Below are positions 19,585 to 21,499 of a stretch of 32,588 nt of DNA, piece after piece. Under the pieces are notes generated by a model, which worked only from the letters and a program-made list of their open reading frames with translations, was not told the origin of the DNA and made no database searches. Position 1 is the first letter of the stretch. Every line of letters starts with the position of its first letter. Source of the stretch: an uncultured Coriobacteriaceae bacterium (GTDB lineage: Bacteria; Actinomycetota; Coriobacteriia; Coriobacteriales; Atopobiaceae). Location: NCBI GenBank assembly GCA_902797175.1, contig CADBRX010000140.1, positions 1 to 32,588 of the forward strand. The letters run 5' to 3'. A program made the translations under genes and the position numbers.

Positions 19585-19661
19585 GCCCCTATAGCTCAGC
19601 GGATTAGAGCGTTCGCCTCCGGAGCGAAAGGTCGAGGGTTCGAGTCCCCCTGGGGGCACCA
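19585..19661 (+). tRNA. tRNA-Arg (anticodon CCG)
   Basis: The 77-nt cloverleaf folds fully: 7-bp acceptor stem with one G-T pair, 4-bp D stem, 5-bp anticodon stem (TTCGC/GCGAA) with loop CTCCGGA giving anticodon CCG (reads CGG, Arg), and T arm with TTCGAGT loop; CCA is encoded. The T stem has one A-C mismatch at pair 50-64. A second copy of its last 21 bases plus 8 flanking bases occurs 175 bp downstream. Confidence 0.96.
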
Positions 19662-19669
19662 GGATATGA
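19641..19669 (+). repeat. tRNA-Arg 3'-end direct repeat, copy A
   Basis: 29 nt covering part of the T loop, the 3' acceptor strand, CCA and the first eight flanking bases of the tRNA gene. It is identical to 19816-19844. This half is the one inside the intact tRNA. Confidence 0.9.
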
Positions 19670-19670
19670 A

Positions 19671-19696
19671 GAAGGCCACCTGCTCAGGTGGCCTTT
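19671..19696 (+). terminator. Terminator after tRNA-Arg
   Basis: AAGGCCACC/GGTGGCCTT stem (10 bp including a T-A inside) with a short loop, followed by only three T. It lies 10 nt after the tRNA CCA. Confidence 0.65.
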
Positions 19697-19716
19697 CCTG
19701 TCTATCACCATCCCAT

Positions 19717-19730
19717 GGGGACTCGAACCC
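19717..19730 (-). repeat. Inverted T-arm copy 1
   Basis: GGGGACTCGAACCC is the exact reverse complement of the tRNA-Arg T-arm at 19636-19649. With the terminator between them, the pair forms a long imperfect palindrome of about 95 nt. Confidence 0.85.
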
Positions 19731-19737
19731 GTAAGGG

Positions 19738-19813
19738 CGGCAGCGTCCAGCGGACGCTGCCGGGCGGAGCGCCGGCAGGCGCGGAGCCGTCGAGCGTTGC
19801 CGCAAGGCAACGC
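19738..19813. repeat. Three GC-rich hairpins between the tRNA fragments
   Basis: Three successive perfect stems: 11 bp with AGC loop (19738-19748/19752-19762), 5 bp with GGCA loop (19769-19773/19778-19782) and 8 bp with GCAA, a GNRA-type tetraloop (19794-19801/19806-19813). They occupy the place where a tRNA body would sit in front of copy B. They may be a structured RNA, or REP-like hairpins inserted next to a tRNA. Confidence 0.7.
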
Positions 19814-19815
19814 GG

Positions 19816-19844
19816 CGAGTCCCCCTGGGGGCACCAGGATATGA
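19816..19844 (+). repeat. tRNA-Arg 3'-end direct repeat, copy B
   Basis: 29 nt identical to 19641-19669 but without a tRNA body upstream. It is consistent with an attachment-site duplicate, or with a segmental duplication of the tRNA 3' end plus terminator. Confidence 0.9.
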
Positions 19845-19875
19845 GAGAGGTCGTCAGCAACGGCGACCTCTTTTT
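19845..19875 (+). terminator. Terminator behind repeat copy B
   Basis: AGAGGTCG/CGACCTCT stem with inner pairs, followed by TTTTT. It occupies the same position relative to copy B as the tRNA terminator does to copy A. Confidence 0.8.
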
Positions 19876-19892
19876 GTTTGTCCCCATCATGC

Positions 19893-19906
19893 GGGGACTC
19901 GAACCC
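19893..19906 (-). repeat. Inverted T-arm copy 2
   Basis: The same 14-nt T-arm reverse complement as at 19717-19730, offset by 176 bp. This shows that the whole unit (tRNA end, terminator, inverted T-arm) is duplicated. Confidence 0.85.
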
Positions 19907-20011
19907 TGCGTTTTCTTCGCTACTCACCTTGTTGGTGACACAAATATCCCCCGACACGACCAAACAAGTCACCCTGACGGCAATGTTTGACCCATTTGCT
20001 ACCAACATCGA

Positions 20012-20134
20012 CAGAACGGGACGCCTGGGCGTCCTCAAATGACCCGTTCCGTTCACGCGTTGGCAGAACGGGACGCCTGGGCGGCCTCAAGTGACCCGTT
20101 CTTATCCTGAAAAGGCAGAACGTGACACGAGGGA
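20012..20134. repeat. 52-bp tandem repeat, type A units
   Basis: Three units begin with CAGAACG at 20012, 20064 and 20116, an exact 52-nt period. Units 1 and 2 are nearly identical and each is bounded by GAACGGG...CCCGTTC, so it can fold as a hairpin; unit 1 also has an inner GACGCC-TG-GGCGTC stem. Unit 3 diverges after about 10 nt and runs into the type B array. A weaker related stretch (TTTGACCCATTTG) precedes unit 1. Confidence 0.8.
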
Positions 20135-20338
20135 GTGTCCAATCCGTCCCAAACGGGGCCGCTTGAGACTCCCACGGACCTGAAAGTGTCCAATCCGTCC
20201 CAAACGGGGCCGCTTGAGACTCCCGCGTACTAGAAATTGTCCAATCCGTCCCGCGCGGTGCCACTTCGGACGCCTGCGTTCCTGAAAGTGTCCAATCCGT
20301 CCCCGATGGTGCCACTTCGGACGCCCCCATACGCGCCG
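20135..20338. repeat. 51-bp tandem repeat, type B units
   Basis: Four units begin at 20135, 20186, 20237 and 20288, an exact 51-nt period. All share TGTCCAATCCGTCCC at their start. Units 1 and 2 share GGGGCCGCTTGAGACTCCC; units 3 and 4 share GGTGCCACTTCGGACGCC. Units 1 to 3 close with TGAAA or AGAAA, as type A unit 2 does (CCTGAAAA), which suggests A and B are related. The minus frame stays open because 51 is divisible by three, giving a 17-residue repeat with GTDWT, but no start signal supports a protein. Confidence 0.85.
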
Positions 20339-20485
20339 CGAGTGGTCACGAGCAACCCCTCATGAACTCGCCTTCACAAGACACAAGCCGCCCGTTTCCA
20401 ACCACTGACGCAGCGTTGGAGACGATCCGACTCCCAATGGCGTAACAATGTACCTGAATACGACCGATTCGAAAGGTTTTTGACC

Positions 20486-21499
20486 ATGGGATATATCGAG
20501 CGCTTCCTTCGGCCCTGCCGCAAGTTCACTGACATCTTCCCCATCGCCATGATCGAGACGTTTCTGCTGATGATGGTCGGGTCGCTCATCGGCCTCGTTG
20601 TCAACAGGAGTCTCGGGCTGGACATTGACCTCACCCCGGAGATCCTCGAGCAGCTTATCACGGGCGAAACCGAGCTCAGCGACTTGACCAGCCTTCCCGC
20701 CTACCTGGTCTGCGCATCGAACTACACCATCTTCATCGGCATCTGGGTGGCCATCATACTCGCCATGCTTCTCCCCCCATCAAACCGGCCCATGCTGAAG
20801 AAGTTCCTCTTTGCCCGTGAGGGCAACACGGTCGGACGCGCGCTGCTCGGGCTGCTTGCCGGCTTTGGCCTCAACGCCACCTGCGTCGTCATCTCAATCC
20901 TCCTGGGCAACATCGAGCTTCGCTTCGACCATTTCGAGCCGATGCCCCTCCTCTTCCTCTTTGTCTCCGTCTTGGTCCAGTCGGGCGCCGAAGAGATCAC
21001 CTGCCGTCAGTTCCTCTATCAGAAGCTGGCCCGTCGCTACCGCCACCCCCTCGTGGCAGCCGTCCTCTCGGCCGTATTCTTTGGCGCTTGCCACTTGGGG
21101 AACACCGGCATGGGACCGGTGCCCTTCGCACAGGTCGTCATCATCGGCATCCTCTTCTCGGAGCTCATCTACTACTACGACGCCCTGTGGGCGTGCATCA
21201 TGATGCATACCGCGTGGAACTACACGCAAAACATCATCTTCGGCCTTCCCAACAGCGGACTCGTCTCCCTCTACTCGATCTTCGAGCTCCGGGCCGCCTC
21301 GTCCGGACCGTTCTTTGACGCGGTCTTTGGCGTGGAGGGCGGCATCGGCGCCTGCATCCTGCTCGCGCTCTCGTGCGTCGCGCTCTTCGTCTACGCAAAG
21401 CGTCACAACCTTGGCCCCAAGGACCTCTGGGCGGACGCCGACCAGGAAAGCGAGCAGAGTCTTCCCCCTGCTCCGGGAGCCCCGCGCCACATGGCGTAA
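20486..21499 (+). CDS. CPBP-family intramembrane metalloprotease
   Basis: 337 aa with about eight hydrophobic segments. The CPBP/Abi (Rce1-like) motifs are all visible: EExxxR in QSGAEEITCRQF, FxxxH in FFGACHLGN, and HxxxN in HTAWNY. These Glu and His residues form the metal site of type II CAAX-prenyl-protease-like enzymes. In bacteria, members are linked to bacteriocin maturation or self-immunity, or have unknown substrates. The ATG at 20486 has AAAGG 9 nt upstream; a TTG two codons earlier is less likely. It stands alone between the repeat island and the aro cluster, with no bacteriocin gene seen nearby. Confidence 0.88.
   Translation: MGYIERFLRPCRKFTDIFPIAMIETFLLMMVGSLIGLVVNRSLGLDIDLTPEILEQLITGETELSDLTSLPAYLVCASNYTIFIGIWVAIILAMLLPPSNRPMLKKFLFAREGNTVGRALLGLLAGFGLNATCVVISILLGNIELRFDHFEPMPLLFLFVSVLVQSGAEEITCRQFLYQKLARRYRHPLVAAVLSAVFFGACHLGNTGMGPVPFAQVVIIGILFSELIYYYDALWACIMMHTAWNYTQNIIFGLPNSGLVSLYSIFELRAASSGPFFDAVFGVEGGIGACILLALSCVALFVYAKRHNLGPKDLWADADQESEQSLPPAPGAPRHMA

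Follow-up and report, generated by a model that had tools for sequence, protein, structure and literature searches.

Background

Among the described systems closest to the arrays reported here, mycobacterial MIRUs are ~50-bp tandem intergenic units of an actinobacterium that are not known to form arrays of dyad sites, and the Tn3/gamma-delta res sites bring together inverted GTC-type half-sites, a subsite of ~34 bp and a spacing of ~five helical turns. The present arrays are like MIRUs in their tandem units of ~50 bp between genes and would differ from them in their dyad sites. They have half-sites, subsite and spacing similar to those of res sites, but are regular and have no linked recombinase.

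REP/BIME elements are short intergenic palindromes of genome-specific types, present in many copies and forming clusters of inverted halves with regular spacing (PMC2817692, PMC3733652); they favour co-directional and convergent intergenic regions (PMC3733652). The CGTC-tagged REPs, including dRS3 and RPE-4/6, have NGTC at their ends and no dedicated transposase; their unpaired tag stands at one end only, next to stems of 8-9 bp, loops of 4-5 bp and a CCA tail, their clusters are rare, and they are given for five phyla, with the Actinobacteria unmentioned (PMC3733652). Literature searches on intergenic repeats of Coriobacteria, Olsenella or Atopobiaceae returned nothing relevant.

The window, i.e. 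the whole stretch of 32,588 nucleotides analysed here, belongs to the genome of an uncultured Atopobiaceae-like bacterium (G000) and contains a tandem array near a tRNA gene. A sequence-only reading had reported this array at 20012-20338, as three type A units running into four type B units, and had proposed a family-specific intergenic repeat, a small-RNA array or a protein-binding array. We report here its organization, its distribution among related genomes and the explanations that can be given for its architecture.

Organization of the array in the window

TRF detected a period of 52 at 20012-20126 and a period of 51 at 20134-20326. In the best run at a single period, 83 of every 100 positions matched; 200 first-order Markov shuffles of the 1.1-kb region of the array, with any period from 20 to 120 allowed, gave at most 50. 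Once framed on their dyads (features without assigned strand), the A units recur at exactly 52 bp, as claimed, in the form of 34-bp dyad sites at 19989..20022 (A1, GACCCATTTG...GAACGGGAC, left half diverged), 20041..20074 (A2, GACCCGTTC...GAACGGGAC) and 20093..20126 (A3, degenerate in its right arm, GAACGTGAC); the first of them begins upstream of the reported interval. The four B units likewise keep the exact 51-bp period attributed to them, with 33-bp dyad sites at 20137..20169 (B1, GTCCAATCCG...CGCTTGAGAC), 20188..20220 (B2), 20239..20271 (B3, right half-site GTCCGAAGTGG) and 20290..20322 (B4), after which the array ends. An 18-bp linker follows A1 (20023..20040) and is also found behind A2, B1, B2 and B3, while the A/B junction is shortened to 10 bp (20127..20136), giving a step of 44 bp from A to B. 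The GAACGGG/CCCGTTC arms described for the A type are present. The CCTGAAA joint supposed to be common to both types lies inside the dyad in A3 and in the linker in the B units, and since it is thus out of register, the sharing is probably coincidental. What the first description missed is that the A type (GACCCGTTC...GAACGGGAC) and the B type (GTCCAATCCG...) represent one half-site motif and one architecture in two dialects.

The nearest RNA gene is a tRNA-Arg(CCG) at 19585-19661, ~330 bp from the array, and the next gene downstream is CAAX-protease-like (20480-21499). The database record nearest to the product of this gene comes from an Atopobiaceae MAG of roe deer, so that this family of Coriobacteriia is the most likely source of the window. 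A 136-residue open reading frame on the minus strand (19920-20330) stays open across the B units and reads through them as a 17-residue repeat, which is the observation in favour of a repeat protein. Its codon score is strongly negative (-0.47 per codon, compared with +0.38 to +0.53 in eight real genes of the window), a non-coding usage that makes it very unlikely to be a gene. Furthermore, each unit of the 52-bp sister arrays shifts the frame, and the arrays overlap no predicted gene, so that we regard a protein-coding repeat as practically dismissed.

Among the matches listed, the tRNA-Arg(CCG)-bearing contigs of array-bearing congeners have no model-detected array, and the window array is therefore probably lineage-specific at this site. 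The interval 19641-19907 comprises the 3' end of the tRNA-Arg(CCG), a terminator and an inverted GGGGACTCGAACCC fragment, with a second copy ~175 bp downstream (19816-19906). Similar partial tRNA copies of 25-28 bp occur near the orthologous tRNA in the genomes G006 and G011, and the partial copy has the appearance of a scar left long ago at the attachment site of an integrative element.

A common architecture with variable sequences

The literal array units had almost no matches when sought elsewhere, and the feature would have failed the check proposed in the sequence-only reading; a search for the architecture succeeded instead. The window array matches no Rfam family, the sole match at gathering score being the tRNA, and nothing in phage and plasmid collections. 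More than 40 intergenic arrays, most of them of one build, were read in G000 and, with a patchy distribution, in related Atopobiaceae-like genomes. Aligned on the dyad, most arrays follow a common plan of GWC, 27-28 bp, GWC on the other strand and an 18-bp linker: inverted half-sites of the form G-W-C-N-N-R-W-N-C-G face each other over 33-34 bp, which together with the linker gives 51 or 52 bp.

From 46 array-level half-sites of four genomes the motif G-W-C-S-V-R-W-N-C-G was obtained, with R at position 6 in all 46 and W at position 7 in 45. Because framing was done manually on G-W-C, positions 1-3 are conserved by construction, whereas positions 4-16 are free. The dinucleotide at positions 4-5 is mostly constant within an array and has a genome-wide favourite (CC in G000, CG in G001, GG in G008 and GC in G011); it agrees between halves in ~0.9 of the units of one array, compared with 0.43-0.52 across arrays. 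The two halves are strongly symmetrical at positions 1-7 and 11-16 (the latter above control) and show no symmetry at 8-10, the second matched block lying ~one helical turn further in. Arrays such as L071 and L073 conserve, in every copy, a pair of unlike half-sites that are not complementary. Inside an array the same linker types reappear, and the sequences differ from one array to another. A CRISPR array was rejected, since the repeats vary between units and the linkers recur within arrays.

A few arrays that were detected from their period only (L116, L129 and L089) have other palindromes and fit the common plan less well. In G008, the 51-bp arrays at L116 7640-8110 and L121 8580-9010 keep the same ruler with a different motif (GCACCCC...GGGGTGC plus ATGTCCCGC) and are tightly placed between convergent genes. 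In the same genome, 34-bp CACAAAG...CTTTGTG palindromes occur in tandem at 63 bp and at 52 bp, at one locus each (L129 13976-14350 and L089 2215-2560), with linkers of 29 and 18 bp that differ by ~one helical turn.

With genes predicted by a simple codon-usage method, all 44 arrays examined in the own and related genomes are intergenic, reaching within ~10 bp of stop codons and mostly staying at least 35 bp from starts. Their flanking genes are co-directional in 13 cases, convergent in 12, divergent in 10 and undetermined at contig ends in 9. The proposed family-specific intergenic repeat thus holds, as arrays of the same architecture in the own and related genomes, all of them intergenic.

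Distribution among related genomes

A profile of three units, trained on the arrays of G000, G001 and G008 only, recovers arrays of this build from G011, G013, G022 and G036, the last two belonging to other genera, as well as arrays with wider dyads in G146 and G134 of a sister genus (g4). In g4 the linker remains at 18 bp, with a dyad of 44/45 bp and a period of 62/63 in G146, a dyad of 42 bp and a period of 60 in G134 and G020, and a dyad of 53 bp and a period of 71, in two copies, in G149. The 18-bp linker is common to four genera. Within the genus of the window, G000, G001, G004, G008, G011 and G013 are array-positive, and G002, G005, G006, G012, G015, G016 and G017 are array-negative. About a dozen congeners have no profile match or marginal ones only, presence being patchy among close relatives, and a 400-kb sample of G003 contained no phased dyad array. 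The arrays are often located at contig ends in these draft genomes. Outside the family, profile matches are few and weak; eight non-Coriobacterial genomes had matches at E <0.001, and consequently only strong or multiple matches were trusted. Four weak out-of-family matches (L264, L265, L281 and L283) were inspected, and none is of the phased dyad kind.

Two other kinds of tandem repeats were observed in the order: GTCCCAAAGTTAAGGATCAGGACT... arrays recurring every 41 bp in the L057 region of another family (G038, C54, C79) and, in a different genus of Atopobiaceae-like type (L203/L204, G019), tandem repeats of 33 bp that contain GTCCA...TGGAC motifs.

Conservation of the spacing

In the non-coding DNA of bacteria, one indel usually accompanies every ten to twenty substitutions. 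Over 103 adjacent unit pairs, ~1290 substitutions were counted and only 5 length changes, a gapless detection that favours equal lengths and under-counts indels. A search for GTCCNAA pairs with a spacing left free from 37 to 67 bp served as an unbiased check and gave 51 or 52 bp in 25 of 26 pairs in G000, 20 of 26 in G001 and 5 of 5 in G011; in most congeners, those without arrays, the spacings are scattered. Stretches sampled without regard to repeats provided the same picture: the long intergenic arrays met in 400 kb of G008 all have a period of 51 or 52, except one at 63, and 164 kb of G000 contained two further long intergenic arrays, of periods 52 and 51, the sampled arrays having very different sequences despite their common period. 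The evidence for conserved array spacing is strong, though gapless detection is biased.

Replication slippage at quasi-palindromes could have duplicated the units neutrally, with a period inherited from an ancestral array; this would account for the recurrence of linker types inside arrays, and the motif shared by the half-sites of all arrays makes common descent plausible. Against such an origin, linker and inner sequences are largely replaced while their lengths remain fixed, and four genera share the 18-bp linker; we consider it improbable as an explanation.

DNA sites or RNA hairpins

Arrays of RNA hairpins, acting as terminators, processed small RNAs or protein sponges, are suggested by good hairpins in some other arrays (z ~-3 in L079, L236 and L238) and by T-runs after a unit in an array of G001 (L078) and one of G000 (L003). 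Across all intergenic palindromes, the length spectrum corresponds mostly to ordinary terminators and is uninformative on the arrays. If RNA hairpins were under selection, G-T pairs would be expected in excess of A-C on one strand of any given array. G-T and A-C pairs are balanced (75 and 69) with no heterogeneity between arrays (p 0.21); a skew in the G001 arrays looked promising as an RNA signal and was gone over all arrays. Compensation within the unit was found in only 5 of 83 changed cells at paired positions, L071 and L073 conserve heterotypic arms that do not pair, and divergent genes flank 10 of 35 arrays. Single units of the window, when folded, did no better than shuffles (z 0.96 to -1.4). 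This lack of strand asymmetry, the rarity of compensation and the three unmatched middle positions argue against hairpins, and the small-RNA array proposed for the window is not borne out; we judge RNA hairpins to be highly improbable for the arrays as a whole. Symmetry in two patches suits groove contacts and not a continuous stem, and the pattern favours recognition of double-stranded DNA, probably through two patches per half-site.

Relationship to mobile intergenic repeats

The arrays are like REP/BIME elements in their many short intergenic palindromes, their genome-specific types and the regular spacing of inverted halves. They differ from GTAG REP/BIME in that they have no unpaired one-end GTAG tag and bear GWC...GWC at both sides, stand in direct tandem with an 18-bp linker of fixed length, do not avoid divergent regions, and flank no RAYT. 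With CGTC REPs they share NGTC at the ends and the absence of a dedicated transposase, but GTC/GAC stands at both ends of the array sites, around a middle of ~14 bp, instead of the one-sided tag with its stem, loop and CCA tail.

RAYT-type Y1 transposase genes do occur in the same genus (L222 871-1996, L224 1328-2396, L225 1790-2022 and L227 919-1375), flanked by REP palindromes of the (A)AGGGTCNNACCCT or GGGGTGGGACCCTT type. A RAYT/REP origin was rejected: the RAYTs of G000, G001, G004 and G011 are flanked by palindromes different from the arrays, and G008 has none. An array of serine-resolvase sites was also rejected, PF00239 being not associated with arrays and having no match in G000 (82% complete) and G004 (87% complete).

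A broader possibility is that the arrays are selfish palindromes of the REP/BIME kind, copied by a putative dyad-recognising transposase or recombinase and devoid of host function, their fixed spacing reflecting the geometry of the copying enzyme. The dominant dialect that each genome displays over many loci, the patchy presence among close relatives, the restriction to intergenic regions in any gene orientation and the lack of an array on the tRNA-Arg contigs of congeners, among the matches listed, all speak for it. Conversely, the RAYTs present locally have palindromes of a different type (GGGGTGGGACCCTT) at their flanks, the array-rich G008 has no Y1_Tnp match, and an unsystematic search saw no solitary mobile unit or target duplication. 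We hold this origin to be rather unlikely as a full explanation; it overlaps with a reading as phased sites and does not exclude it.

Possible phased sites for a putative DNA-binding protein

With a site of 33-34 bp and a linker of 18 bp, sites recur ~every five helical turns. Our preferred reading, to which we give slightly less than an even chance and which is drawn from sequence comparison, is that the tandem arrays may be phased DNA sites for successive dimers of a putative sequence-specific protein. Dimers of one such protein would occupy successive dyad sites along approximately the same side of the helix, its specificity would drift between lineages, and the bound array could act in chromosome structuring, insulation or self-propagation; the arrays may lengthen through tandem duplication and give rise to arrays at further intergenic loci by a REP-like spread. 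The sequence-only reading is thus retained in part: the intergenic repeat stands, the protein-binding array is the best mechanistic reading of the architecture, protein binding itself being what we infer, and the small-RNA array is not supported.

Two observations sit uneasily with phased sites. It is awkward to attribute the many half-site dialects of one genome to a single protein, and the g4 periods of 60 and 71 (two copies each) misfit whole turns. No candidate protein partner emerged: the occurrence of PF00239 resolvases and of PF01797 transposases does not follow that of the arrays. A more specific scenario, in which a dimeric, fast-evolving putative protein would polymerise along the dyads in ~five-turn steps at dozens of loci, with lineage dialects and a chromosome-organising or self-propagating role, appears to us unlikely in its entirety.

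Conclusions

As far as literature searches reach, phased dyad-site arrays represent an undescribed class, nearest in habit to BIME/REP and lacking the features by which BIME/REP are defined. Bacterial intergenic repeats are usually recognised by their shared sequence; here the ruler is kept and the letters are not, so that sequence searches miss the arrays. If a protein reads this ruler, the genomes of this group would hold a natural series of spacing variants (50, 51, 52, 60, 62/63 and 71 bp) and specificity variants (several half-site dialects), in which helical phasing and the coevolution of repeat and protein would be directly testable.
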